Positions 10,462 to 42,772 of a DNA stretch of 43,012 bases are shown here, one piece after another. The position numbers and the translations under genes are program-made. Under the pieces are notes generated by a model. It saw only the letters and a list, made by a program, of their open reading frames with translations, was not told the origin of the DNA and ran no database searches. Source of the stretch: a virus; IMG/VR virus record IMGVR_UViG_3300031565_000100, positions 1 to 43,012 of that record; one strand, written 5' to 3'. Position 1 is the stretch's first letter; every line of letters starts with the position of its first letter.

Positions 10462-10636
10462 AAGAGAGAATGAACAACTTGCTCAGTTACAAACTGATAT
10501 GTGTTGGGTCAAGAAGATCCTCGGCAATCACCTGCAACATCACCAGAAGTTAAATATAGCCCTTTTAGTCGTGGCTCTCTCCGCTGTTGGGGGTCTTGTC
10601 GTCAACATCCTCGTTGTTTATACCAGATCCCGCTAA
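10454..10636 (+). CDS. Holin-like (XhlA-type topology) small membrane protein
   Basis: 60 residues. Start ATG at 10454 is chosen because AGAGGA (10441-10446) is seven bases upstream; a longer reading from 10415 would lie wholly inside the polyvalent gene. An N-terminal amphipathic helix (ENEQLAQLQTDMCWVKKIL) is followed by one C-terminal hydrophobic span, LNIALLVVALSAVGGLVVNI, and a short basic tail. This arrangement matches XhlA-like holin accessory proteins. It is the last rightward gene and overlaps the 3' end of the oppositely oriented gene by 72 bases. No endolysin is seen next to it. Confidence 0.55.
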   Translation: MTKRENEQLAQLQTDMCWVKKILGNHLQHHQKLNIALLVVALSAVGGLVVNILVVYTRSR

Positions 10637-12513: not shown

Positions 12514-12683
12514 AATTTAACTCCTAACTTAAACAGTACAGATTTTGCTCGTTTGCCTTTATCTTCACTTACTTTATCAGGATAACTTTCTTCAGAGGCA
12601 TAAAACTGTAAAACTTCTATGACCCTGGTAATGTCGATCTTCTGTAATTTTTTATTCAAAATGATGAATCGTGTTTTTTCCAT
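12510..12683 (-). CDS. Small hypothetical protein
   Basis: 57 residues from ATG at 12683, which overlaps the stop of the primase-helicase gene (TAATG); a longer reading would start inside that gene. Sequence is basic and helical (MEKTRFIILNKKLQKIDITR, VIEVLQFYASEESYPDKVSE). No recognised domain. Translational coupling to the primase-helicase suggests co-expression with replication functions. Confidence 0.5.
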   Translation of the reverse strand: MEKTRFIILNKKLQKIDITRVIEVLQFYASEESYPDKVSEDKGKRAKSVLFKLGVKL

Positions 12684-14929
12684 TATGGTTTTCCTAAAAA
12701 GTCCTTGTAAACCCATGCTCTTATTCTAAGGCCGTTATAAATAGGAACAGATCTATCTTGCCTTGTAGAAACATCCATAGAAATATCGGGCAATACACAC
12801 ATAAGCTTCTGGCAGAACTGAGCCTGGAAACCTGGATGCAGCCCATGTATACCACACCATCCCCTCCATGCTTCATAGAGGTCATTAACATCTGCCGTAC
12901 CATTGCCTATCTCACAACATTCATTTATGAATGAAGAAGCCGGAGTAGTAACAGCCCTAAACTCATTTATAATAGGTTCCGATGATGTTGGTATGATCAA
13001 ATCTTTTTCTTCTCTGAGATCTCGTAAGCCATCTAAGGCCCACATACATATTCCTTGGGCCTCGGCTTGAATTTTACGTTTTAGGCTTCTATCCTCTCGG
13101 CCCACATAAGAATTTGGAAAGTGCAAAAGGGCAAGCCGTGATTCAAGAGCCTGGGCATGATCAGGCAAAGATGGTAGCACGTTGACAGCTATAGTGAATC
13201 GGCATTTTAACTGGATATTTGGGAGTGCGGCCAGGCATTTTCTATTTATACTAACCGGATCTCTACCAGTTATGGCTAAGATTCTTTCCAATGCCTGTCC
13301 CGCGTCCACACGCCTTGAAATTCTGGCATCGCTAAGGAGTGCGGCCAGCTTACCTATAAGTGGTTGTAGCCCAAAGGGACCACAGATTTCGGCAAAGCTT
13401 ATGGAAGCGACTTGTTCAGACCCAAGCATAGCTGTCAGGGCCGATATAACAGTCCCTTTACCTGAACGTGGTCGACCCACAAACACCATTAGCCTTTCCA
13501 AACCCATATCAGGTACGAGGTTATACCCAAACCACTGTTGAAGAAGTCTTATGCGTTCTGGATCTTTGTTGAAAACGTCGTTAAGAAAATTTAACCATAC
13601 TTCAGGCTTCTTGGCCTTTTCCCAGGGATAAGGCAAAGCCGTAAAACTAAAGTATTTTGGGGTTGGGGGCTTTAGGATATTGTGGTTACATTCCAATATA
13701 CCATTTTCAAATACTATAAGATCAACCGGATCAAAGTTTTCTTTATCATCAAGCCATACCGGAGGATCTTCTCCTATCGGACACCATTGACAACAGGCAT
13801 CCAATATGTCACTTACTTTGGAACGAGTGGGTTTATATGGAGTTATGGTAATGCCGCCTTTTGCGTCTGTCCTTGGATATTTTTTATCTTCAAGAAACCT
13901 GTATACATCACCCCGCACTCGTTCAATGAGAAGCTGAATGTATTTATTGCCGTTGTATTCTACCCACTGGCCTTTCCAATTTCGTAGCATACATTGGTCA
14001 ATAAGATTATACTTGTTCTTTAGATATACTTTAGCAATATCAGCAGCTACGTCACTTGGCAAAATATCGGGATCTATCTCCGTGTCACTGTGTTGGTCCA
14101 CGTATTTGAGAAGGGTTTCGAGTTTAAGCTCCCCTCTATTTTTCCAGTCCCGAAGATCCTTAAAACCTTCCAGTGGTAGTATCTTATTAACTTTTGGACA
14201 AACGGATTTGAGCGTTTGGAAAGCTGCCTCCATTCCTTCCTTGCCTGCACCGGAATCATTTTCTCCAACAACAATAATGTTTCTACCGGCACATACTTTC
14301 GCCAGAAGATCCATTTTACCCTGTGCAGAGGGTCTGCCTACAGCAACAAAACCCATTTCCATAGCAGCAATAACATCCGAGTGACCCTCGACCACAATGA
14401 CCGGATATTCTGATACTGGCAGCAATCCTCTTGTGGTGTTAGCCATTGACCGGGCTTGATCGAGAATATGGAGAAACCCCGCTGCCCCAGGTATGGGTTT
14501 GACTGATCCATCTCGAACTTTGGTACATAATACGGCGGCGGGATTTCCTGGAGATTCACTTGATACCATGCAGTATTTAATCCTTTGACAAATAGGACAT
14601 GGCCGATCCTTAGTTGTTCTGGTCCAGTTATGTTTTCCTGGGGCATAACGCTTTTCTCCTCTTTCATAATTTTGGTTTAGGTAATAGGCAAGACCCCGGT
14701 TAGAACCTGTTTCCATGAACTTTTTGCCGTCTATGCCGCGATAAACAATTCCTATAATCTTGCCTTTTTCATCGCGTTCTGCAAATGCCCAAGACTGATA
14801 ACGCGGGCAGAAGCCGACACCTAATTTATCAATATAAATGGGATCAAGCTGGAGATCTTTCGCCAATACATCCAACATAGCCGATGAAACATTGGTGCAG
14901 TAAGTCTCAAAAAGTAAGGCTAAGTCCAT
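12683..14929 (-). CDS. Bifunctional primase-helicase (TOPRIM-like plus SF3 helicase)
   Basis: 748 residues from ATG at 14929; GGAG stands eight bases upstream, whereas an earlier ATG at 14992 lies in hairpin-rich leader sequence. Residues 36-65 have the GVGFCPRYQSWAFAERDEKG type of motif found in phage primases. C111, C114, C120 and C135 could bind zinc. The TOPRIM-like fold shows VVEGHSD (E181) and VVGENDSGAG (222-229). The C-terminal half is a superfamily 3 / poxvirus D5-like helicase: Walker A GRPRSGKGT at 485-493, Walker B-like LLSDA near 531-535, motif C-like AVNVLPSLPD at 581-590 and Arg 598. It would prime and unwind DNA at the fork with the split polymerase and RecA-like ATPase encoded upstream. 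A hairpin with a short T-run precedes it and may reduce its expression. Confidence 0.85.
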   Translation of the reverse strand: MDLALLFETYCTNVSSAMLDVLAKDLQLDPIYIDKLGVGFCPRYQSWAFAERDEKGKIIGIVYRGIDGKKFMETGSNRGLAYYLNQNYERGEKRYAPGKHNWTRTTKDRPCPICQRIKYCMVSSESPGNPAAVLCTKVRDGSVKPIPGAAGFLHILDQARSMANTTRGLLPVSEYPVIVVEGHSDVIAAMEMGFVAVGRPSAQGKMDLLAKVCAGRNIIVVGENDSGAGKEGMEAAFQTLKSVCPKVNKILPLEGFKDLRDWKNRGELKLETLLKYVDQHSDTEIDPDILPSDVAADIAKVYLKNKYNLIDQCMLRNWKGQWVEYNGNKYIQLLIERVRGDVYRFLEDKKYPRTDAKGGITITPYKPTRSKVSDILDACCQWCPIGEDPPVWLDDKENFDPVDLIVFENGILECNHNILKPPTPKYFSFTALPYPWEKAKKPEVWLNFLNDVFNKDPERIRLLQQWFGYNLVPDMGLERLMVFVGRPRSGKGTVISALTAMLGSEQVASISFAEICGPFGLQPLIGKLAALLSDARISRRVDAGQALERILAITGRDPVSINRKCLAALPNIQLKCRFTIAVNVLPSLPDHAQALESRLALLHFPNSYVGREDRSLKRKIQAEAQGICMWALDGLRDLREEKDLIIPTSSEPIINEFRAVTTPASSFINECCEIGNGTADVNDLYEAWRGWCGIHGLHPGFQAQFCQKLMCVLPDISMDVSTRQDRSVPIYNGLRIRAWVYKDFLGKP

Positions 14930-14945
14930 ACAAATATCTCCAAAA

Positions 14946-14975
14946 GGCCGGTAGCGGCTGGTCCCACTACCGGCC
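14946..14975 (-). terminator. Terminator-like hairpin before the primase-helicase gene
   Basis: Perfect 9-bp inverted repeat GGCCGGTAG (14946-14954) and CTACCGGCC (14967-14975). Read on the minus strand it is followed by TTTTGGAG, so a T4 run directly precedes the primase ribosome site. A second palindrome TGCCCGCGGGCA (14980-14991) lies just upstream. The pair could act as a leaky terminator or processing site, giving more transcript for the upstream ssDNA-binding-like gene than for the primase. Confidence 0.45.
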
Positions 14976-15001
14976 ATAATGCCCGCGGGCACAAGGGACT
15001 G

Positions 15002-18210: not shown

Positions 18211-18821
18211 TCTATTATCCTCAATTCAATTAGCTTAGTTCTGAGTTCATCTGCCGAATGAACAAGCAGGTATACGCCATTATTTGCTTCTATATTAGCC
18301 TGAAACCATTCTTGATCCGGGCTTTGCTTGCCGCCTACTCTACGCTTTACTTCAATAGCCAGGAATTTGCCATCAGGACAAATGCCAATAATGTCTGAAG
18401 ATCCTTTGGTCCCAAAGCCGATATATCTTGATCCCATTTGAAATACGCCAGTATTATTACGCCAGGCGAATATGCCAACTTTTTTTAGAAACGCTTTACA
18501 CTCTTTAAGTACAGTCGCTTCGAGATCTTTTTTGGGCTTTCTTGGTTTTCGTTCTGGAATTTTGGGCGTAACATCCAGTTGAGGATCAAATGTCACTTCA
18601 AGAGCAAGGGCATCTGGACTAAAATTGAGCTTTTGTGCTGCCATTTTCCAGCCAGCTTCCCATAGTTTATATGCTTCTGTTCCTGGACGATATGGATTTG
18701 GTATTGCAAGTGTTGATTCAGGATTATATGCTTTACCACCCTCGGCCATGATAGCGAATTTCTTTGCTTGCTTTTGTAGTTTAGCCTTTTCTATTAGGAT
18801 ATTTTGCCGTCTATTTCTCAT
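18207..18821 (-). CDS. VRR-NUC domain nuclease
   Basis: 204 residues. C-terminal half (about 100-200) matches the VRR-NUC fold of the PD-(D/E)XK superfamily: ATVLKECKAFLKK, GIFAWRNNTGVFQ, GTKGSSDIIGICPDGK with catalytic Asp, FLAIEVKRRVGGKQSPDQ with E-x-K, and NNGVYLLVHS. The N-terminal half is a linker-like basic segment unique to this protein. Such proteins act on branched or flap DNA in phage replication. Start overlaps the polymerase gene by 11 bases and its stop is coupled to the Cas4-like nuclease. Confidence 0.8.
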   Translation of the reverse strand: MRNRRQNILIEKAKLQKQAKKFAIMAEGGKAYNPESTLAIPNPYRPGTEAYKLWEAGWKMAAQKLNFSPDALALEVTFDPQLDVTPKIPERKPRKPKKDLEATVLKECKAFLKKVGIFAWRNNTGVFQMGSRYIGFGTKGSSDIIGICPDGKFLAIEVKRRVGGKQSPDQEWFQANIEANNGVYLLVHSADELRTKLIELRIIE

Positions 18822-19686
18822 ATTTCTTTCCCGTTGCTATTTCAACATCTACTGGTAATCCCGCTGCCCACTCCGGTACAGACTTCATTATCTGTTCTAC
18901 AATCATAGAAGTAAGCAATATATCTTTATCGGGTACAATACATACCACTTCATCGTGGACATGGAGCACAATAGGTATGCCCTGTTTTTCTATTTCCAAT
19001 ATCCACCACCCCAACAGGTCACGGGCTATGGCCTGGATTATGTTCTCCACCAGGCTACCACCCCACAGTGCTCCATAATGCCACCGGATTTCAGATCTAT
19101 TGAGGGTCCGTTTGAGCCGGGCGTGGCGGTATCTGAGGCATCGACCCGATGGAAGTTGGATTATGGCTGTTCCATCTTCATTCCAAAAAGTAAGCAATGT
19201 TTTGGCTACCCATCCTTCAGACACAAAGTCACTACCGTAAGCCATTACTTTATCTGGATATTTCAACACCCACTTAAAACACTTTTCAACCGTATTCCAT
19301 AGTTTAGGGATTCTGGCATACTTACTACGATACGTATCTATAATATACTTTATGAATGGAAGATTATATTGCCCAGATTCAAATAGGGGTCTAAGTGCAT
19401 CATTCTCCAGACATCGAGAATAAAATTTGTCAGCACCCATCCCGTATCCTGCACCAAGTATGGCATCTTTTCCAAATCCACGCCGCAACTTCAGCAGCTT
19501 CGCAACAGGCTCAGGATCAGTTTCATTCGGCTTGTGAATATGACATTTGAATAATTCTGCTGCAAGGGTAGAATATATATCTTCATTGTTGGCAAAGCCC
19601 TGGGTAAGATCATCTTGACCGGCTAACCATGCCAATGCCCTTGCTTCAATCTGAGCAGAATCAGCTATGATCATAGATTCATTCAT
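18811..19686 (-). CDS. Family A DNA polymerase, palm/fingers subunit (C-terminal half of a split polymerase)
   Basis: 291 residues. Motif A is IIADSAQIEARALAW (D9, E14, R16), motif B is RRGFGKDAILGAGYG (R69, K73, Y81), followed by QAIARDLL near 218-225 and motif C HVHDEVV (H244, D245, E246). All polymerase catalytic residues are therefore here, but the thumb and exonuclease are in the upstream gene. The start ATG overlaps the stop of that gene (ATGA at 19683-19686). Together the two make about 676 residues, a normal family A length, so nothing seems missing. Two subunits probably assemble into one enzyme; motif A has Ser-Ala in place of the common Tyr-Ser. Confidence 0.88.
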   Translation of the reverse strand: MNESMIIADSAQIEARALAWLAGQDDLTQGFANNEDIYSTLAAELFKCHIHKPNETDPEPVAKLLKLRRGFGKDAILGAGYGMGADKFYSRCLENDALRPLFESGQYNLPFIKYIIDTYRSKYARIPKLWNTVEKCFKWVLKYPDKVMAYGSDFVSEGWVAKTLLTFWNEDGTAIIQLPSGRCLRYRHARLKRTLNRSEIRWHYGALWGGSLVENIIQAIARDLLGWWILEIEKQGIPIVLHVHDEVVCIVPDKDILLTSMIVEQIMKSVPEWAAGLPVDVEIATGKKYEK

Positions 19687-20840
19687 TCGGTTATTATCAA
19701 CTCCCGTATTTGCCCGATCAATGGATGCAATGCTCTCATTCTACCCCGGCCACCAAAGTTTTGCGGATTTATGCCTTGGGTTCCACTCCAACGGCCCGTA
19801 TGTCCACCATAATAATATAGAGGTATCCGCAGTTTACCTCCAGAGGCTTTGGCTTGGGCAACCATAGACTTGATACGTTTTATATGATTGGGCCAGGAAC
19901 TTATGGCCTGTTTTGCTATTGCTAATTGTCTAACCTCTGGATTCTTATGCTGGAGAAGATACTTCATTCCATCATCATTCTGTGCCAGGGCCGGTATTTT
20001 TCCAGGACCAGTGATCGGGATCATGTTTTTAGTAGGTTCGCCTGGTTTTACTGGTAATAGTTCCTTGCCCAAAGCCTCTTGAATTATCCTGGCGAACGAA
20101 ATGTCACCCGATATATCTTCAGCCGTATGCCCTGTAGCTTCGACAGCAGCATCCAATTCTGCTTGCATTTGTTCTATTAGTTCTTTGGCTTTAGCATAAT
20201 CTAATGTCAACCGGGGTTCAAGATACATTTTCAGAGTATGCCGCTGAAGCGGTATTTCAAGTTCTGGATTTGTGAGTAATGGTAGAAACTTTCGGAATAA
20301 TTCTACTTCTATTTCAATATCATTGCGACAATACTCAACCATAGCTGCTATATCAATTTCGGCTGTATGCTTACCGAGGAATTGTTTAGTATCACCTTTC
20401 GGCTGTAAACCACAGGCAGGAGCTACATCCTTCATTTTATGACTCATACGAGCATCATAATATCGCAATAGATTATCAATATCAATAATATACAGTGGTA
20501 CAATGCCAAAATGGACTTGCATTAGGGTAATATCAAACATTGCATTTTTGACTACTACAGTACAGCGTTCCAGGTTCTTGCCGTAATTTGTTTGCAATAT
20601 ATTGATCCATTGGCTTATCCTATCTGCATCTATGAATTGAGAATTAGCGTTGACCGCAGCAAATGGCTGGTGCATTTCAAATATGCCGAAACCGTGTAAT
20701 TCAAAACGAGGATCGGTCAGGTATTCTATCGTTGACATTTTACTAAGGCTGTACTTGCTGTCGAAATACGTTTCAAAATCAATGATCAGGGCCGTTGTGG
20801 GCCAATTAACAGATTGTAGAACATCTTGCCAGTTCATCAT
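19683..20840 (-). CDS. Family A DNA polymerase, 3'-5' exonuclease and thumb subunit (N-terminal half of a split polymerase)
   Basis: 385 residues from ATG at 20840, chosen because it overlaps the stop of the upstream gene (ATGA); an ATG five codons earlier is possible. Proofreading exonuclease motifs: IIDFETYF with D21 and E23 (Exo I), VVKNAMFDITLM with D103 (Exo II), EYCRNDIEIEV with Y170 and D174 (Exo III). A helical thumb follows. The C-terminus HTGRWSGTQGINPQNF is the conserved polymerase segment just before motif A, ending in LIGQIRELIITE. The protein then stops, and motif A begins in the next gene. Works with it at the replication fork. Confidence 0.88.
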   Translation of the reverse strand: MMNWQDVLQSVNWPTTALIIDFETYFDSKYSLSKMSTIEYLTDPRFELHGFGIFEMHQPFAAVNANSQFIDADRISQWINILQTNYGKNLERCTVVVKNAMFDITLMQVHFGIVPLYIIDIDNLLRYYDARMSHKMKDVAPACGLQPKGDTKQFLGKHTAEIDIAAMVEYCRNDIEIEVELFRKFLPLLTNPELEIPLQRHTLKMYLEPRLTLDYAKAKELIEQMQAELDAAVEATGHTAEDISGDISFARIIQEALGKELLPVKPGEPTKNMIPITGPGKIPALAQNDDGMKYLLQHKNPEVRQLAIAKQAISSWPNHIKRIKSMVAQAKASGGKLRIPLYYYGGHTGRWSGTQGINPQNFGGRGRMRALHPLIGQIRELIITE

Positions 20841-21016
20841 ATAAAATCTGGACAATCGGCGGGTATAATGTGGTAGGTATAAGAGTTTAAGTGTTCAAAC
20901 CGCCAAACACATTCTAACCAGCACCACCTACCATCTTTAAGTTGAACAGGATACCACGCAAACCATTTTGTTTGCCGGTGTATTTTTTGTTCTTTGTATG
21001 TTTTACCCCATATCAT
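20837..21016 (-). CDS. Small Trp-rich hypothetical protein
   Basis: 59 residues beginning MIWGKTYKEQ and containing WFAWYPVQLKDGRWCWLECVW. It is flanked on both sides by ATGA overlaps (start at 21014-21016 with the upstream gene, stop at 20837-20839 with the polymerase exonuclease half), which strongly supports translation. The aromatic sheet-like pattern resembles small phage proteins of unknown role. Function not assigned. Confidence 0.6.
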   Translation of the reverse strand: MIWGKTYKEQKIHRQTKWFAWYPVQLKDGRWCWLECVWRFEHLNSYTYHIIPADCPDFI

Positions 21017-26224: not shown

Positions 26225-26714
26225 CTGATACCTCCACTATTTGTAATGGTAATCCCCACGTTTGCTTTCTGGTATGCCGGTCAAATTTTCTCATGCCAAC
26301 AGAAGGAAGGGACGGCATAAGTGTTCTTAATATACGCCCAAAATGATTGCGTGATATAGAATATCCTGCATATTTTTTCTGTAGCCATTCGGAAAAATAG
26401 GCATAGATTTTTTCATTTGGCACAAACTTATCAGCATCAGAGCAAACCCTGAACACCCCCATCCATGCCCGAACCACATCTTCCGCAGATATTTTCTTAG
26501 AAGGAAAACATTCATAGAATAACTGCATCAGGGTTTCTTTACTGTTCGGACAATCCTGAAGGTCAGGTCGTGTCGCTGCCCACGCTAAAAAATGGGCATA
26601 AAACCCATCCTCATTCATTACTTTACTCCGCTTGATTATTTTCTGCCGTATCAAGATTCTGACACATTCCCGATAGAATAGTCGTATCAGAATTAGCTTA
26701 CCTTGTTTTGTCAT
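26211..26714 (-). CDS. Putative DNA-binding protein resembling the C-terminal winged helix of phage primases
   Basis: 167 residues from ATG at 26714 (ATGA-coupled); an internal ATG at 26618 with GGAG is an alternative start. EKIYAYFSEWLQKKYAGYSI followed by SRNHFGRILRTLMPSLPS and KFDRHTRKQTWGLPLQI is the F..Y..W.....S...FGR.L.......R pattern seen in the C-terminal domain of D5/P4-type primases. Here it stands without the ATPase. May help initiation or regulate; tentative. Confidence 0.5.
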   Translation of the reverse strand: MTKQGKLILIRLFYRECVRILIRQKIIKRSKVMNEDGFYAHFLAWAATRPDLQDCPNSKETLMQLFYECFPSKKISAEDVVRAWMGVFRVCSDADKFVPNEKIYAYFSEWLQKKYAGYSISRNHFGRILRTLMPSLPSVGMRKFDRHTRKQTWGLPLQIVEVSDEKK

Positions 26715-27373
26715 TGGTAAAATTCCTCCGCTTCTTCCTTAGTCATAAAGAAGTGAATGCCGTGTGAACATTCAACGCGAATATCATCATCGAAGCTATC
26801 AGCGTGAACAATTTTACCTTCTTCATAATAAAGTTTTTTTATTGGTGAGTATCCGCTTCCCTTCAAAACTTTTACAAACGCGGCCCTGCATTTACGGCCC
26901 ACAAGAGAAGAAATACGTTTAGCCGACGCTGGTATGCGTATTTTGATAACGCCGTTTCCAGTTTTTTTCCACGCATCAAATGCACCAGTTTCAGGGCATA
27001 TCTGAAAGTCAGGCAGGTTTGCTCCCTGTAGGTCCGCATCCCGCAGGTTTGCCCCCCGTAGGTTTGCTCCCCATAGATTTGCCCCCCGTAGGTTTGCATC
27101 CTGTAGGTCCGCATCCTGTAGGTCCGCTCCCTGTAGGTCCGCATCCTGTAGGTATGCCCACCGTAGGTTTGCATCCTGTAGGTCCGCTCCCTGTAGGTCC
27201 GCATCCTGTAGGTCCGCATCCTGTAGGTCCGCTCCCTGTAGGTCTGCCCCCCGCAGGTCTGCCCCCCATAGGTCTGCTTCCCGCAGGTCTGCCCCCCGCA
27301 GGTCTGCCCTTACACCTTCTAATTTACCCTGAATCCATAATTCATGTTTCTCTAAAATTTCTTGTAAATTCAT
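26711..27373 (-). CDS. Pentapeptide-repeat protein with C-terminal domain (DUF5758-like)
   Basis: 220 residues from ATG at 27373 with GGAG upstream. Residues about 22-120 are about twenty tandem A(D/N)LxX pentapeptides (for example ADLRGADLREADLWG), which fold as a right-handed beta-helix, a DNA-mimic-like rod in some proteins. The C-terminal about 100 residues (CPETGAFDAWKKTGNG, AKRISSLVGRKCRAAFVKVL) match the domain often attached to phage pentapeptide proteins. Target unknown; gyrase or host-enzyme inhibition is one known role of the fold. Confidence 0.8.
   Translation of the reverse strand: MNLQEILEKHELWIQGKLEGVRADLRGADLREADLWGADLRGADLQGADLQDADLQDADLQGADLQDANLRWAYLQDADLQGADLQDADLQDANLRGANLWGANLRGANLRDADLQGANLPDFQICPETGAFDAWKKTGNGVIKIRIPASAKRISSLVGRKCRAAFVKVLKGSGYSPIKKLYYEEGKIVHADSFDDDIRVECSHGIHFFMTKEEAEEFYQ
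27016..27310. repeat. 15-bp tandem repeat array encoding the pentapeptides
   Basis: Nearly identical 15-bp units (plus-strand core GTAGGTCCGCATCCT) recur about twenty times inside the pentapeptide gene. Several adjacent units match at every base, so identity exceeds what protein conservation requires. This implies recent expansion by slippage or recombination, and copy-number variation among relatives is likely. Confidence 0.8.
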
Positions 27374-27403
27374 TTTAAGCTCCAATATTTTTCTATCCGT
27401 ATT

Positions 27404-29543: not shown

Positions 29544-29873
29544 TTATTCTGGTTTGCATACGTCTAATCGTTTGTAAACCTCGTCAAACCGTTCACCGCA
29601 TGACAGGCAAATATGTTCATAAACTATCTGGCCTGGATTAGGATAGTTTACGTCACCTATGTCAAATTGGCCCATGCCTTCTTCGTTACAAGTGGGACAC
29701 CTCAATTCGACACAAGCGTTATCCTTGATTGCCCGATTCAGAATATCGCGGTGCTGCTGATTCTTCACCGTGAAAAATGACAAGTCGGCTATAGCAAAAG
29801 CAAAACTTGCCAAGTCTCCGGTCTTTCGATATTCCTCAAATGCCTTTTGTGTTTTGTCTGTTATTGCTCCCAT
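29544..29873 (-). CDS. Zinc-ribbon protein with helical N-terminus
   Basis: 109 residues from ATG at 29873, with GGGAG upstream; a GTG at 29918 has no ribosome site. Helical start MGAITDKTQKAFEEYRKTGD, then CPTCNEEGMGQFDIGDVNY and CLSCGERFDEVYKRL forming CxxC...CxxC (zinc ribbon). It is the first gene of the leftward block and has a structured leader, so may be an early regulator. Function inferred only from motif. Confidence 0.6.
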   Translation of the reverse strand: MGAITDKTQKAFEEYRKTGDLASFAFAIADLSFFTVKNQQHRDILNRAIKDNACVELRCPTCNEEGMGQFDIGDVNYPNPGQIVYEHICLSCGERFDEVYKRLDVCKPE

Positions 29874-29934: not shown

Positions 29935-29980
29935 GGCCCGTAGGTTTGCCAGCAAACATGCCCTTCAGGTGCTACGGGCC
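29935..29980 (-). promoter_or_regulatory. Structured leader (three-way-junction-like)
   Basis: 9-bp inverted repeat GGCCCGTAG (29935-29943) and CTACGGGCC (29972-29980) closes a region with inner hairpin GTTTGC-CA-GCAAAC (plus 29944-29957) and a small CC-TTCA-GG. It lies between the -10 at 29994 and the ATG at 29873, followed by CGTAGCTACG, a 10-bp palindrome (29903-29912). May be a regulatory RNA in the leader; no known class recognised. Confidence 0.4.
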
Positions 29981-29993
29981 GGAATACTTATAG

Positions 29994-30022
29994 AGTATAC
30001 CATATACTCAGGCCAATGTCAA
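29994..30022 (-). promoter_or_regulatory. Leftward sigma70 promoter (copy 2 of a repeated element)
   Basis: Minus strand TTGACA (30022-30017), 17-bp spacer identical to copy 1, TATACT (29999-29994). The -35 is flanked by GTGGATAATCCAC (30023-30035), a perfect 13-bp palindrome. Expected to start the structured leader and the zinc-ribbon gene at 29873. Confidence 0.8.
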
Positions 30023-30058
30023 GTGGATAATCCACGCAACGTGCCAATATACAATTAT

Positions 30059-30087
30059 AGTATAGCATATATTCAGGCCCATGTCAA
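30059..30087 (-). promoter_or_regulatory. Leftward sigma70 promoter (diverged third copy)
   Basis: Minus strand TTGACA (30087-30082), 17-bp spacer TGGGCCTGAATATATGC, TATACT (30064-30059). The spacer keeps the GGCCTGA-TATATG core of the other two copies. The 11-mer CCAGACACCCA lies 23 bp upstream (30121-30111). Confidence 0.75.
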
Positions 30088-30110
30088 ATATATTATTGTG
30101 TATTTTAGCA

Positions 30111-30121
30111 TGGGTGTCTGG
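30111..30121 (-). promoter_or_regulatory. 11-bp element CCAGACACCCA upstream of the leftward promoter
   Basis: Reads CCAGACACCCA on the minus strand, 23 bp before the -35 at 30087. The same 11-mer occurs on the plus strand at 30659-30669 and 30714-30724, the latter 25 bp before the rightward -35. The symmetrical placement suggests a shared activator or initiator site (inference). Confidence 0.45.
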
Positions 30122-30125
30122 TGAA

Positions 30126-30340
30126 TTTACGGTATATTGCTCTTGACTATTTTACTGTAAATATGTTCTGGCTTTTTAACTGTAATTGGTATTGACTTTT
30201 TTGACCATTTCGTAAATGTTCTTTCCAATGTTGCGATTTTGAGCTGATATTCAGGATTATTAGATAGATAGATAGAAGGTGAGATAATTATTAACTTGTT
30301 TACATATAGGAAAAATAAATAGAGATATAGTACCGTAAAA
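30126..30340. promoter_or_regulatory. Four copies of a TTTTAC(T/G)GTA-like element
   Basis: TTTACGGTA (30126-30134), TTTTACTGTAA (30150-30160), TTTTAACTGTAA (30174-30185) and, inverted, TACCGTAAAA (30331-30340). The second is nearly palindromic (TTTAC-T-GTAAA). Could be operators for a repressor or iterons for an initiator. Copies differ slightly, so significance needs a statistical test. Confidence 0.35.
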
Positions 30341-30431
30341 TGTCAAGGATATAATTACACAATGATATTTTTTTCTCTATAGGGGTAAACAAGTCAGTTT
30401 TCAAACGACGACCTATCTATCTATCTAATAA
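30257..30431. other. Candidate replication origin: nested inverted repeats
   Basis: A 19-bp perfect inverted repeat, TTATTAGATAGATAGATAG (30257-30275) and its complement (30413-30431), encloses 137 bp of AT-rich sequence. Inside it is a second perfect 10-bp inverted repeat ACTTGTTTAC (30294-30303) / GTAAACAAGT (30385-30394). No plausible gene lies in the interval. Position between divergent promoters and strand switch of the genes fits an origin or centromere-like site. No experimental support. Confidence 0.45.
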
Positions 30432-30749
30432 AGCGTGATTTTGAATTGGAAATGAGGAAATGCCAGATATACATTGCATTTCTAAACATTTTGATTTGTT
30501 TGTTATATATCTAACATTCAGGACAGCATATGTAGGTAATCATTTAACACATCATATAGTGTGTCAGCCGATTGACCACACACCACATCTTGTGGGTGCT
30601 TGTCGGCTATACCACAAGGGATGGGGGGTGGTACCCTTGACCCCGTGCTGCTGGAGTCCCAGACACCCATACCTGGACTCCCCCCACACCTAATTTTCCC
30701 TATCGTAAATCATCCAGACACCCACAGGTAAAAAAATATAAGATTTCAC
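30432..30749. other. Non-coding stretch with GC-rich structured island (candidate ncRNA or protein-binding region)
   Basis: No credible gene (an ORF at 30460-30693 was rejected). Within about 30563-30690 are several pairings: AGCCGA (30566-30571) with TCGGCT (30603-30608); CACCACA-TCT-TGTGGGTG (30581-30598); GGGGGG (30623-30628) with CCCCCC (30680-30685); GGAGTCC (30653-30659) with GGACTCC (30675-30681). The 11-mer CCAGACACCCA occurs at 30659-30669 and 30714-30724. The GC content contrasts sharply with the AT-rich surroundings. Confidence 0.4.
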
Positions 30750-30778
30750 TTGACTTTTAGGGCCAGGTATGGTATAAT
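30750..30778 (+). promoter_or_regulatory. Rightward late-block sigma70 promoter
   Basis: TTGACT (30750-30755), 17-bp spacer TTTAGGGCCAGGTATGG, TATAAT (30773-30778). The spacer shares GGCC...TATGG with the leftward promoters. Start site about 30785, then AAAGGGG and the ATG at 30807. An upstream CCAGACACCCA (30714-30724) and an A-rich tract (30729-30740) precede it. Confidence 0.8.
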
Positions 30779-30806
30779 AGGAGTACAATTAAAGGGGCAT
30801 TACTTT

Positions 30807-31337
30807 ATGCAATGGCTTGAACGGCTAATATCGGCAATTCTTGACCTATTTCCTCGTATTTGGATGATCTTCCCGGATGAAGCAGGTATACGAATCACCG
30901 GGGGAAGTCGTTTCAGGCCCAAAGGACCGGGTTGGTACGCCTACTGGCCCATCATACAAGAGTGTGTGAAGATCACAGTCACACCACAAATAATAGATCT
31001 TAGGGACCAGAGCCTTACGACCTCCGATGGACACGTCATAGCGATCTCCGGGGCCGTTGAATACTCCATACGGGACGCTAAGAAGGCCATCCTGGACGTA
31101 CAAGATCTCGATAAGTCGTTACCGGCCCTGTGCCTGGGCAAGATAACCGAGTATGTAGAGGTTCACACGCTGGCCGAGTGTCGGGCCGAAAGCCTTAAAG
31201 ATGAATTGAAGATGGCTATACGTAGTCACGTAAACGATTGGGGTATTAAACTGCGGGAAGTGTTCATAACAGACGCGGCTAAGGCACGTGTGATACGGCT
31301 TATGCTGCCTATAAAACAAGGAGAATCGTATGTCTAA
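30807..31337 (+). CDS. SPFH / band-7 domain protein (HflK/prohibitin-like)
   Basis: 176 residues from ATG at 30807 with AAAGGGG upstream. An N-terminal amphipathic/hydrophobic segment (LERLISAILDLFPRIWMIFP) could touch the membrane. Then a band-7 core: VKITVTPQIIDLRDQSLTTS, DGHVIAISGAVEYSIRDAKK and LGKITEYVEVHTLAECRAES, with the paired TLAE and WGIKLREVFITDA typical of stomatin/prohibitin/HflKC. Known family members scaffold membrane proteins and modulate FtsH-type proteases. First gene of the rightward operon, a few genes before a DegP-like protease. Could protect phage proteins or exclude superinfection (inference). Confidence 0.75.
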   Translation: MQWLERLISAILDLFPRIWMIFPDEAGIRITGGSRFRPKGPGWYAYWPIIQECVKITVTPQIIDLRDQSLTTSDGHVIAISGAVEYSIRDAKKAILDVQDLDKSLPALCLGKITEYVEVHTLAECRAESLKDELKMAIRSHVNDWGIKLREVFITDAAKARVIRLMLPIKQGESYV

Positions 31338-31668: not shown

Positions 31669-31859
31669 TGCCGGAGATCGAAGAAGAATGTACGTTTGAA
31701 GTCAGTACGAAGAACTGTAGTTTTGAAACACAAATGAACGGAACGGATCGACTGATCCTGTCTAAGATGGATCTGTCACCGGAAACTGCTGCGAGTCTGG
31801 CTTGGTTAGTAAATCAACCTGGTACTACATTGAGATTTGAGGTAAAGCAAAATGTGTAA
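31668..31859 (+). CDS. Small acidic hypothetical protein
   Basis: 63 residues from ATG at 31668, which overlaps the previous stop (TAATG) and has GGAGG upstream. MPEIEEECTFEVSTKNCSFE, LSPETAASLAWLVNQPGTTL: a short beta/alpha protein. A longer reading from 31551 would overlap the upstream gene and is rejected. Function unknown. Confidence 0.5.
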   Translation: MPEIEEECTFEVSTKNCSFETQMNGTDRLILSKMDLSPETAASLAWLVNQPGTTLRFEVKQNV

Positions 31860-32532
31860 ATGGATAGCTGGGATAGGACTGGTGCTATGTGTGGTGGCTA
31901 TAATTATATTACCTGTGCCTAAACAGGGTAACAAGATCGACAATATGTTGAAAGCCAGTGTCTATATTGAAGCTATGGATGAGGGTTATAGTCTATGGTC
32001 AGGAAGTGGAGTCGTCGCAGGTGGGCGTATTATAACGGCTGCTCACGTGCTTGAAGGTGCTGGTGACTTGCGGATACTGGATGTGAACGGCAACGAGGTA
32101 GAGTATGGGGAATTTTATTATAGCGAGGACAATGACTTCGGGTTTATTATTCCTATGGATAGTAATCTGCCATCTGTTCCTATAGTGGACTCCAACAGTC
32201 TTTATTATGGAGATGTAGTGTATATCGTTGGTGCTCCATTCGGTCTGGACATGTTTCCCACCGTGACATGCGGGATAGTGTCCGGGTTGAACAGGCGGTT
32301 CGATTTCTTTGGCAAAGACTTTCAGAGTCAGGTCGATGCTCAGTCTTGGCCGGGTAACAGCGGCGGGGGTGTGTTCAACGAGCGTGGTGAGCTTGTCGGC
32401 ATACTGATAGGCGGTATGTGGGGGACAGATGGAATGTCCATTATAACACCTTCTGAAGTTATCCTTGATGATTGGTATCTGAGTCCGTTGTATGAAAGAG
32501 AAAAAGATAAAGTGGAAGTGCCCGTGCTGTAA
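31852..32532 (+). CDS. Trypsin-like (DegP/HtrA-type) serine protease, membrane anchored
   Basis: 226 residues. N-terminal hydrophobic anchor (residues 5-20, IAGIGLVLCVVAIIIL), then protease domain with catalytic His65 in ITAAHVLEG, candidate Asp95 in SEDNDFGFI, and Ser170 in WPGNSGGGVF. GAPFG and TCGIVSG segments fit the chymotrypsin fold. No PDZ domain is visible, so shorter than DegP. Encoded near the SPFH gene. The active site would lie on the outer side of the host membrane if the anchor is a signal anchor. Maturation of virion proteins or host quality control are possible roles. Confidence 0.8.
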   Translation: MCKWIAGIGLVLCVVAIIILPVPKQGNKIDNMLKASVYIEAMDEGYSLWSGSGVVAGGRIITAAHVLEGAGDLRILDVNGNEVEYGEFYYSEDNDFGFIIPMDSNLPSVPIVDSNSLYYGDVVYIVGAPFGLDMFPTVTCGIVSGLNRRFDFFGKDFQSQVDAQSWPGNSGGGVFNERGELVGILIGGMWGTDGMSIITPSEVILDDWYLSPLYEREKDKVEVPVL

Positions 32533-38987: not shown

Positions 38988-40091
38988 ATGGGTATACCAA
39001 ATTCAGAACTTGCAGATCTGATTGCAACTACTCTTAATGATCTTCCCAAGCAGTATTTTGAAGTTGCCTGGGACAATCAAGATTATGAGGCTTGCCGGAT
39101 CTATCAAAATGAAAGAATGGTAGTTGACGGTGGGGAACAAATTGAGCGTCAGGTTATGCTTGATCCCCTCGGAAACGCCAAGTATCGTAGATGTTACGAT
39201 ACGGATGAACCCAAAGTTGGCCAGGTTATGAGCAAGATTCTTGTTCCCTGGACACAAATTGGTACTGACTTTTCCTGGGATAAATTTGAAATTCTTCGTA
39301 ACAAGAACTCGGCCAAAGGATTTATCAACTTGATGAAAGTCAAGAGAACCGAAGGTTATTGGAGTTTAGCTAATCTTATTGAAACACGTTTTTGGCTTGC
39401 CCCGATAAGTGCAACCGATGATTTGAACCCCTATGGTGTTCCTTATTACATCAACTGTCTTAATGCCAATGTTACTACGCCTGGCTTTAGCGGGCAGACC
39501 ATCCGTTATCAGAACGTCAGTACAGGCACTATCTGTGCGGGCATTGACGCAGCTAATGAGGCCAAATGGCGTAATTATGCTGCTACTTATACCCAGGTGG
39601 ATAATGCTCTGTTGACAACCTTTAGATTAGCATTTATGAACACCAGATTCAAAGCTCCGCTGATCGTAAATGATCCCTCACAGAAGCGAAATGCTGCAAA
39701 GCGGGTATATGCTGATTTTAATGTATGTGCTGATCTTATGGCTTTAGCTGATGCTAAAGACGATAAGCATACAGGCAAGGAAGTCCTTGGAAATCTTAGA
39801 GTTGATGAGGGTGGCCTTGTCACGCTCAACCGTTTACCTGTGGTTCCGATTCCGCAACTGGTAGGTGTTACTGATCCCGTTACATCTACGTTACTTGCCC
39901 CGATTTATTGCATCAACTTCGAGAAGTTTATTCCTTACGTCCATGATGGTTATTGGATGGAGGAAGGTGAGCCTATGTATGATCGTGGACAGCATACTAC
40001 GTTTACAGTATTTGTTGATGGGGCACATAACAACCTGTGTACCAACAGGCGTGAAGCAGGCTTTGTTATTCATAAGCCTATCGTTTCGTAA
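38988..40091 (+). CDS. Major capsid protein
   Basis: 367 residues with AAAAGGAGATAGAAG upstream. It starts directly without an obvious cleaved delta domain. Segments such as PLGNAKYRRCYDTDEPKVGQ, PWTQIGTDFSWDKFEILRNK and EEGEPMYDRGQHTTFTVFVD fit a HK97-fold coat protein. Placement after scaffold and before a decoration-like protein supports it. Forms the icosahedral shell. Confidence 0.8.
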   Translation: MGIPNSELADLIATTLNDLPKQYFEVAWDNQDYEACRIYQNERMVVDGGEQIERQVMLDPLGNAKYRRCYDTDEPKVGQVMSKILVPWTQIGTDFSWDKFEILRNKNSAKGFINLMKVKRTEGYWSLANLIETRFWLAPISATDDLNPYGVPYYINCLNANVTTPGFSGQTIRYQNVSTGTICAGIDAANEAKWRNYAATYTQVDNALLTTFRLAFMNTRFKAPLIVNDPSQKRNAAKRVYADFNVCADLMALADAKDDKHTGKEVLGNLRVDEGGLVTLNRLPVVPIPQLVGVTDPVTSTLLAPIYCINFEKFIPYVHDGYWMEEGEPMYDRGQHTTFTVFVDGAHNNLCTNRREAGFVIHKPIVS

Positions 40092-40115
40092 TCAAAAATA
40101 AAGGAGAAAATTATC

Positions 40116-40919
40116 ATGGCAAAAGGTAAGGCACAAGTAAATTATCTCCATCGGGCGGGCCTTGTGAGCAGTATAGATGCACCTGATTGGGGATTCATCT
40201 ATGAGACCTCTCTCATTAAAGATTCCAAGTGGAATATTGGGGATCGGGTTGTGTTGCCCGATGGTCGTGAATACATTTATTCCAAGTCGGCAGGTGCTTG
40301 TATATCCGGTCAGGGTGCTGAATTTACCTATGCTGGTTATACGGCATATACAGCATTTGGTGTAGCGGCTGCTGTAGGTGATAAAGAAGTTACTGTTCCT
40401 GCTGCTACTCATGCGGTATTAACCGAAGATGAATTGCGTGGTGGATATATCTGTATTTTCGATGGTTCTACTAATAGTGTCCAGTTTAGAGGTATCATCG
40501 GAAATGCTGCTGCTGCGGCAAATGTGGCTTTCAAGGTTTATCTCGATGGTCCTCTTACGGAAGCAGTTGTTGCAAGTACGTCAGCTTGTGAAACATATCA
40601 GAATCCTTATGCTGCTTTACAAACTGGTACTATGAACTATAACCCCAAAGCTGGCATACCGGCTGTAAAGGTTACTGCTGCAAATACCTATTTCTGGTGT
40701 CAGCGAAAAGGATTCGCGTGGGCTGCTCCGCAGGGCGGCAAACTTGGGACTACGGAAGGCGGCTATTGCGGCGGTTTCTGGAGTGATGTTGGCAATATTT
40801 CCGACGCCAACACAAGTCTTGGTGTTACTGTAGCCACAGGGCGTGGATCACAGTATGCTGGTTATGCAGTATTAGGTGATGCCGATAACATCGGCCCTTT
40901 GTTTATGTTACAAGGTTAA
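40116..40919 (+). CDS. Capsid-associated structural protein (possible decoration protein)
   Basis: 267 residues, AAAGGAGAAAATTATC before the ATG. Beta-rich with many Gly/Ala/Thr: DREYIYSKSAGACISG-like start, AVGDKEVTVPAATHAVLTED, FDGSTNSVQFRGIIGN, VTVATGRGSQYAGYAVLG. Follows the major capsid gene and is followed by a terminator. Capsid decoration or head-fibre function is likely; no named family. Confidence 0.55.
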   Translation: MAKGKAQVNYLHRAGLVSSIDAPDWGFIYETSLIKDSKWNIGDRVVLPDGREYIYSKSAGACISGQGAEFTYAGYTAYTAFGVAAAVGDKEVTVPAATHAVLTEDELRGGYICIFDGSTNSVQFRGIIGNAAAAANVAFKVYLDGPLTEAVVASTSACETYQNPYAALQTGTMNYNPKAGIPAVKVTAANTYFWCQRKGFAWAAPQGGKLGTTEGGYCGGFWSDVGNISDANTSLGVTVATGRGSQYAGYAVLGDADNIGPLFMLQG

Positions 40920-41151: not shown

Positions 41152-41490
41152 ATGAAGAAATATGAATTACAAGTAGCTGACTTTGATGTAACATATCCTA
41201 TAAGGGATGAAAAAGGTACTGTTACAGATAAAACTGAAACTTACAAATTTAGGGAAATGGTAGGTAATCTACTTAGGGCAATGGGTGTTTTCAAAACTGG
41301 AGAGGAAATTGTAGAGGCCATCACATTAGCCAAACAAATACGTGATTGTGAAAATGATATGATTACTCTGGATGAAAAGGAAGCTGATACATTAAAGAAA
41401 TGTCTTAATGTTCACATATCCAAAAACAGCTTCGGTGGAATTATACACGAAACTGCCATATTGCGGATATTCAATATGAAAGAGGTTTGA
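41152..41490 (+). CDS. Hypothetical head-tail region protein
   Basis: 112 residues from ATG at 41152, with GGAG six bases upstream; an ATG at 41140 lacks a site. MKKYELQVADFDVTYPIRDE, KFREMVGNLLRAMGVFKTGE, ITLDEKEADTLKKCLNVHIS; alpha/beta. Two bases from the next gene. May be a head completion or tail chaperone-type protein; not recognised. Confidence 0.55.
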   Translation: MKKYELQVADFDVTYPIRDEKGTVTDKTETYKFREMVGNLLRAMGVFKTGEEIVEAITLAKQIRDCENDMITLDEKEADTLKKCLNVHISKNSFGGIIHETAILRIFNMKEV

Positions 41491-41491
41491 C

Positions 41492-42772
41492 ATGGCTGAA
41501 CCAACCACAGCTTTAACATATACGGATCTTGTAAAAGAAGTTGCCCTTACAGCAAGTACGGCATATTACGGTGCGACTGGTACAGATAGAGCATTGCCAC
41601 CTGTCAATAACGTACACGATCTTGATGAGTGTAAACGTGCGGTAACAAACGGAATAAGGATGTTCATAAATGATGCCCCGGTTAGAGGCTGGAGATGGAT
41701 GCGTAGAATAATGTCTATTACATTTGTCCCGGCTATAACAGGAACGGCAGAGGCAGGTACGTCAACTTCTCTTACAGATACTACTATTGCTGATACATAC
41801 GCCGACAATTATTTCAACACCTTTACGATCAAGATAATTGGTGGTACTGGCGAAGGTGAAACTGCTACAGTGACAGGCTATACCGGATCAGGTGGCAAAT
41901 TCGATTTCAGCGGTGGTTTATCTGGTGGGTCTACACCGGACGACACAAGTGAGTACAGGATATGCCGATCCTTGTCAGTAATAGATGCCGATCCCGCCCG
42001 ATATTTGATGGATGAAAATTTCGGTGGAACTGTGGATGGTAAAATACTTTATGCCGCTAATTCTAATCTCGGTCATATAGAATGGAGAGATGAGAGTTAT
42101 ATCAGAGAGCGTAAAGAGATTAGCCGAAATACGGGTTATCCTACTGCGGCGGCTATCAGACCATATGAACCCACATCCAATGCTCTTTTAGCAACAAGGA
42201 GATTTGAGTTTATTGTAGATCCTGATCCAAGCACAGCAGACACAGTGGAATTTCCGTATACCCTGTACTTCAATGATTTTATCCTCGAAGGTGGAGTAGC
42301 AGATACTCCAGCGGATGCTACTACTACTCTTATAGATGCCACCAGGACAGAACCGGATGATTTTTTCATTGGATATGTAGTTAGGATAATCGGCGGCACA
42401 GGTAAAGGAAGTTACGCTACTGTGACTGGTTATGCCGGATCTACAGGTACATTTACTGTAGCCGATTGGCTCGATCAATCTGGTAATGCCGATGGCACAG
42501 ATCCGGTTGCTGATAGTGTGTACGTTGTTGAAGCTACTACCAATGTTCATCCGGCTGGTTTTAGGTTTGACGATACCATTCTTGCTGCATGTTTGGCACG
42601 TGCCGAGATGGACATAGAAAATTTTCCGGCTGGATATATGGATTACTATATGAAAAAGGCACTACCAAATGCTTATAATATAGATGCTCGTAGTGCTCCA
42701 AAACGACTCGGATCTATGAACTATGGTCCTAAAATTCGTGAACGAATATGGAAAGATGTTGAATCTGTTTAA
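41492..42772 (+). CDS. Head-tail connector / tail-adaptor-type structural protein with duplicated beta domain
   Basis: 426 residues. N-terminal helical part VHDLDECKRAVTNGIRMFIN then GWRWMRRIMSITFVP resembles head-tail adaptor proteins of podovirus-like phages. Two inserted copies of IIGGTGxGxxATVTGYxGSxGxF at residues 115-139 and 299-321 are internal duplicates of a small beta domain. The C-terminus ends with EMDIENFPAGYMDYYMKKAL and a basic tail. Connector role is inferred from position and the adaptor-like N-terminus. Confidence 0.6.
   Translation: MAEPTTALTYTDLVKEVALTASTAYYGATGTDRALPPVNNVHDLDECKRAVTNGIRMFINDAPVRGWRWMRRIMSITFVPAITGTAEAGTSTSLTDTTIADTYADNYFNTFTIKIIGGTGEGETATVTGYTGSGGKFDFSGGLSGGSTPDDTSEYRICRSLSVIDADPARYLMDENFGGTVDGKILYAANSNLGHIEWRDESYIRERKEISRNTGYPTAAAIRPYEPTSNALLATRRFEFIVDPDPSTADTVEFPYTLYFNDFILEGGVADTPADATTTLIDATRTEPDDFFIGYVVRIIGGTGKGSYATVTGYAGSTGTFTVADWLDQSGNADGTDPVADSVYVVEATTNVHPAGFRFDDTILAACLARAEMDIENFPAGYMDYYMKKALPNAYNIDARSAPKRLGSMNYGPKIRERIWKDVESV

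Follow-up and report, generated by a model that had tools for sequence, protein, structure and literature searches.

A long, imperfect nested dyad in the gap between two divergent gene modules is, in a reading that we hold with moderate confidence, a replication origin onto which two helicase rings are loaded head-to-head. The dyad lies in a viral DNA of 43,012 nucleotides (IMG/VR record IMGVR_UViG_3300031565_000100), the whole of which was analysed and is termed the window. The contig circularity check gave no terminal overlap, and annotated phages include no close relative of the window at the DNA level. The dyad consists of the following parts.

30257 to 30275, plus strand: left outer arm TTATTAGATAGATAGATAG, 19 bp, perfect, about four TAGA units
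30413 to 30431, minus strand: right outer arm CTATCTATCTATCTAATAA, 19 bp, perfect
30294 to 30303, plus strand: left inner arm ACTTGTTTAC, one of the 10-bp pair
30385 to 30394, minus strand: right inner arm GTAAACAAGT, the other of the 10-bp pair
30236 to 30453, no strand: whole imperfect nested dyad, candidate origin core, single axis at 30344, about 218 bp
30304 to 30384, no strand: AT-rich centre flanked by the inner arms, with partial pairing, 74% AT, putative melting region

The 19-bp perfect inverted repeat with a spacing of 137 bp and the 10-bp pair inside it are present as an earlier note on this DNA described them. Both pairs share the centre 30344 and thus form a single imperfect dyad; the repeat finder merges them into one 47-nt arm pair that is 74% complementary, and the region 30236-30453 contains 61 Watson-Crick pairs. 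The 19-bp arms are the sole perfect inverted repeat longer than 12 bp in the 43-kb window when spacers of up to 400 are allowed, and the longest perfect inverted repeat in 20 whole-window Markov shuffles is 11-13. The z score of the dyad is the highest of the window (6.6, versus 4.2-5.0 in shuffled windows) and rises to about 9 against shuffles of the divergent gap, first-order Markov shuffles being the nulls. The AT content is 74% in the dyad and 66-74% in the gap around it, as compared with 57.5% in the window, which agrees with the AT-rich character given in the earlier note; the position at the switch of gene direction is likewise confirmed. The GATA-type units that it regarded as iteron-like are the arms themselves, with about four TAGA units each, and form no separate array in the window; the iteron-like character is weakly developed there and well supported in several relatives.

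The architecture was followed in relatives with the help of a conserved box. About 120 loci, on viral contigs and on four MAG contigs, were obtained by TerL searches, and a conserved box of fixed direction occurs in their divergent gaps.

30615 to 30720, plus strand: GC-rich conserved box, consensus approximately gACCCCcCGGGTAgTACCCTTsG - about 35 nt - tTGGACCCC

The box (GACCCCCCGGGTAGTACCCTTsG ... TTGGACCCC) lies between the dyad and the rightward genes, and its copies include those at 30615-30720 in the window, 5998-6101 in L087, 5132-5235 in L142, 6506-6609 in L113 and about 30 more. It is oriented toward the terminase genes in every case. The copy in the window is divergent and was located by exact pattern, not by profile. 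RNA structure was not found for the box, the matches to its pattern outside the family are mostly chance coding matches, and the box is apparently specific to the family of the window's phage.

The box served as a dyad-independent anchor, from which 900 bp upstream was scanned at 26 loci including the window. At 13 of these loci, a hairpin upstream of the box scores above every one of the 100 shuffles, as compared with 1 of 26 inside TerL and 3 of 26 downstream for controls of the same length; the median hairpin z is 4.35 upstream of the box and about 0 in the controls. Half of the box-bearing loci are without a significant dyad, and several of these have repeats. Repeated 10-mers are enriched (z>4) in 19 of the 26 loci (controls, 1 and 3). 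Clusters of short repeated words are weak in the window and clear in L129, L135, L150 and L120: AACATAGGCCA occurs 8-9 times in L129 and TACCTAGACACA six times in L135, without copies in the rest of the locus of about 20 kb, and phage-specific words are strongly concentrated upstream of the box in L150 and L120. An energy-based scan of the upstream regions, used in a reduced form and noisy, served as a guide only. Sequence is shared at E<0.01 by 2 of 91 pairs of dyads and by 120 of 630 pairs of boxes. The conservation in relatives that the earlier note proposed to check is one of architecture, which is present, and not of the exact repeats, which are absent from every relative found.

Dyads at the corresponding position are also found in cultured phages. 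From the hit list, six isolates whose primase-helicase is homologous (25-32% identity) were hand-picked, such that they provide a lead rather than a survey, and the stretch read per isolate is the whole genome or 50 kb of it. In four of the six, namely three Vibrio-collection phages and one E. coli phage, a divergent gap holds the strongest dyad of the stretch read.

43419-43709, Vibrio phage 2.044.O (MG592661): dyad, score 60, fills the gap 43420-43710
41391-41690, Vibrio phage 1.050.O (MG592432, L186): dyad, score 65, overlaps a 162-bp annotated ORF
Vibrio phage 159E43-1b (OZ196825, L182): dyad, score 43, overlaps small annotated ORFs
55852-56086 of the record, E. coli phage HelliStehle_Bas95 (PQ850607): dyad, score 26

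The shuffle maxima for these four isolates are 15-20. The gap dyad is tied for best in OX241555 and ranks fourth in KY002061. Small ORFs are annotated inside the dyads at 41628-41789 in MG592432 and at 40073-40168 in OZ196825; those of the Vibrio-collection phages may be annotation artefacts. Base-pair compensation between related Vibrio phages is weak, with compensatory changes at 2 of 9 changed pairs in a pair of phages that are 94% identical. Doubly changed pairs are kept in two distant relatives at 6 of 18 and 14 of 26.

In the window, the dyad is flanked by leftward genes on one side and rightward genes on the other. The gap is about 930 bp long and extends between in-frame ATG starts at 29873 (minus strand) and 30807 (plus strand), both of which have ribosome-binding-like sequences. 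The leftward module encodes Pol A in two frames, an SF3 primase-helicase, a PD-(D/E)XK exonuclease, a Sak4-like annealing protein and a resolvase-like nuclease, and the rightward module encodes an SPFH protein, a trypsin-like protease, terminase, portal and a probable capsid protein. The family A DNA polymerase (18811-20855, minus strand) is represented by a separate 3'-5' exonuclease ORF and a polymerase ORF, and a pentapeptide-repeat protein with a DUF5758 domain is encoded at 26711-27385 (minus strand) in the leftward module. The first rightward gene encodes the SPFH/Band-7 protein (30807-31337, plus strand) and is followed by that of the trypsin-like protease (31852-32532), both of which are unexpected directly upstream of a terminase gene; no relatives were found with the neighbour protein 30750-31337 as query. 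Strong sigma70-like promoters are predicted to face outward on both sides of the dyad, with -35 boxes at 30087 and 30022 (leftward) and 30750 (rightward).

30059 to 30087, minus strand: leftward sigma70-like promoter 1, TTGACA-17-TATACT, 11/12 consensus
29994 to 30022, minus strand: leftward sigma70-like promoter 2, within a 61-bp tandem duplication
30750 to 30778, plus strand: rightward sigma70-like promoter, TTGACT-17-TATAAT
30111 to 30134, minus strand: 24-nt motif TACCGTAAATTCACCAGACACCCA, 23 bp upstream of the -35 box of leftward promoter 1, putative shared regulator site
30701 to 30724, plus strand: 24-nt motif TATCGTAAATCATCCAGACACCCA, 25 bp upstream of the rightward -35 box, partner of TACCGTAAATTCACCAGACACCCA

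The tandem duplication (29971-30031 and 30036-30096) places the two leftward promoters in series. The two 24-nt motifs match at 20 of 24 positions, which is attained in 0 of 300 shuffles, and have the identical orientation to transcription. This likeness suggests that a common activator may act on both promoters.

The main rival to the origin reading is that the dyad is a long operator array, on the mirrored arms of which a phage regulator co-ordinates both divergent promoters without taking part in the start of replication. The strong outward promoters on both sides agree with such an array, the gap appears to be a shared control region because the 24-nt motif is located 23 and 25 bp upstream of the respective -35 boxes, and clustered inverted words fit operators as well as origins. 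However, the edges of the dyad are about 150 bp from the left -35 box and about 300 bp from the right one, a repressor or HTH family was not found among the proteins scanned, and the dyads of the cultured phages, at 235-408 bp, are long for operators. We therefore regard an operator array as rather unlikely. A recombination site, which the earlier note had also considered, is argued against by the lack of a recombinase among the proteins scanned.

The dyad is always located upstream of the terminase genes (by about 3 kb in the window), and the nearby box has a fixed orientation to TerL, as might be expected for a packaging-initiation (pac/cos-like) site to which the small terminase subunit binds. 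This function is improbable for the dyad: pac sites are usually located in or beside terS, the contig ends of the long relatives do not fall at the box but are scattered, the nearest being 731 bp away, and the packaging enzyme is conserved, yet the dyad has no conserved sequence.

It is very improbable that the dyad is an inverted duplication without function or an insertion of MITE-like type, even though its terminal 19-bp inverted repeats have TA at each outer end and template switching can produce inverted duplications. Several copies would be expected of a mobile element, but no second copy of the dyad was found in the window genome and none elsewhere, exact-motif scans of viral contigs for the arm sequences having returned unrelated loci only. 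Random insertions, moreover, are not expected to appear repeatedly, in many phages and with unrelated sequences, at a single position. As a separate observation, viral contigs unrelated to the window's phage contain intergenic tandem or nested hairpin units of the form GGATAGATAG...CTATCTATCCTTAATGAATT (L055 9802-9952, L061 6318-6577, L063 1083-1236, L066 722-1194 and L067 739-892).

The mismatches in the stems comprise 51 G·T and 46 A·C in 14 stems, and 26 G·T and 22 A·C in the four cultured phages. Because one of these classes should prevail in the stems of an RNA of one polarity, their balance suggests that the constraint on the stems is more likely on DNA than on RNA. A long structured RNA or a terminator hairpin is the least probable of the readings, since, although the RNA fold z of the dyad is -6.4 on the plus strand and -6.3 on the minus strand, the G·T and A·C mismatches are without strand bias, no tRNA or Rfam match and no intrinsic terminator was found, and the dyad is located between divergent, not convergent, operons.

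The candidate initiator for the origin reading is encoded in the leftward module.

12683 to 14992, minus strand: primase-helicase, putative initiator, with zinc finger, Toprim, D5_N, SF3 helicase and C-terminal winged helix

All 23 long relatives tested encode a homologue of this protein, even where a clear dyad is lacking. The structure model (pLDDT 85.5) has a winged-helix-like C-terminus at 683-768, and its best PDB match is the SaPI5 primase-helicase (Rep; 7ola). The C-terminal domain of SaPI Rep recognises and binds the iterons of the origin (PMC7581432). An origin with opposed SF3 rings is consistent with the two-fold symmetry of the dyad, its AT-rich centre and fixed position, the turnover of its sequence and an enzyme of initiator type. 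The candidate origin of the earlier note is supported in part and is the best-supported reading on account of the dyads and repeat clusters at the same position in relatives and of a primase-helicase of an origin-binding type, and we infer the functional steps of binding, melting and initiation at the dyad.

According to the origin reading, the origin core would sit between the leftward replication and early genes and the rightward structural genes. The initiator, most likely the phage Toprim-SF3 primase-helicase acting through its C-terminal winged helix, would bind phage-specific words in the mirrored arms, and the mirror-image arms would load two helicase rings in opposite polarity. The AT-rich centre would then melt, the primase domain would prime both strands, the phage Pol A would extend the primers, and forks would depart bidirectionally.

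Several observations count against the origin reading. Half of the box-bearing loci have no significant dyad, and no clear cluster of iterons is seen in the window. The primase-helicase gene, near which no comparable dyad was found, is about 15 kb distant from the dyad, unlike the replication genes that the pRN1 and SaPI origins adjoin. The cumulative GC skew, proposed in the earlier note as a check, has its global minimum at 30080, inside the gap, and its maximum at 10516; this agreement is confounded with gene direction, because the skew extremes coincide with switches of gene direction, so that transcription alone predicts it and skew does not separate replication from transcription, and in two cultured Vibrio phages the minimum is located away from the dyad.

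More tentatively, phages with a SaPI-Rep-like Toprim-SF3 enzyme might share an undescribed class of origin, a long dyad at a fixed position between divergent modules, the symmetry of which is kept while its sequence is fully turned over, because the symmetry itself, either as two opposed helicase rings or as a cruciform, is recognised or selected. Origins are unmapped in most phages that carry their own replication enzymes, and a rule that the origin is the genome's best dyad, placed in the divergent gap that precedes the terminase genes, would allow them to be predicted from the sequence only, both for an uncultured lineage of large size and for Vibrio and E. coli phages in culture. A further question is how symmetry persists while sequence is replaced.

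The element resembles several known origins in part. The pRN1 origin is a stem-loop with conserved structure but not sequence, which is essential for pRN1 and has been proposed for BIP-1 phages (PMC4234260). Likewise, a long hairpin-forming element is found here together with an SF3 helicase-primase with a winged helix, and the stem-loop structure is kept without sequence conservation at about half of the loci. However, the pRN1/BIP-1 origin is located just 3' of the replication gene, rather than about 15 kb from it in a divergent gap, the primase is an archaeo-eukaryotic prim-pol, rather than the zinc finger/Toprim type found here beside SF3 and winged helix, and the window dyad is longer. 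SaPI Rep, P4 alpha and SCCmec Cch2 use iteron origins (PMC7581432; P4 as reviewed in PMC4234260). They have in common with the window a D5/SF3 primase-helicase with a C-terminal winged helix, which is predicted here from the model, and their origins have repeated words, but the window has mirrored arms instead of a clear iteron array, and these are not beside the rep gene. In lactococcal c2-type phages (Ceduovirus), as in the window, a non-coding origin region lies between divergent early and late modules, and this region is of unrelated sequence types among related phages (PMC7150918). In contrast to the element described here, the c2 origin works in plasmids without phage proteins, and a long nested dyad is not reported for it in the parts of the source that bear on it (PMC7150918). 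In the V. cholerae PLE, the long non-coding region that contains the origin has semi-palindromic repeats (PMC7145576), but the initiator is RepA_N, not SF3. The window element is not classed with pRN1 or SaPI, because the gene adjacency of both and the prim-pol of pRN1 are lacking; by analogy, it would work like the origins of pRN1 and SaPI if the proposed steps hold.
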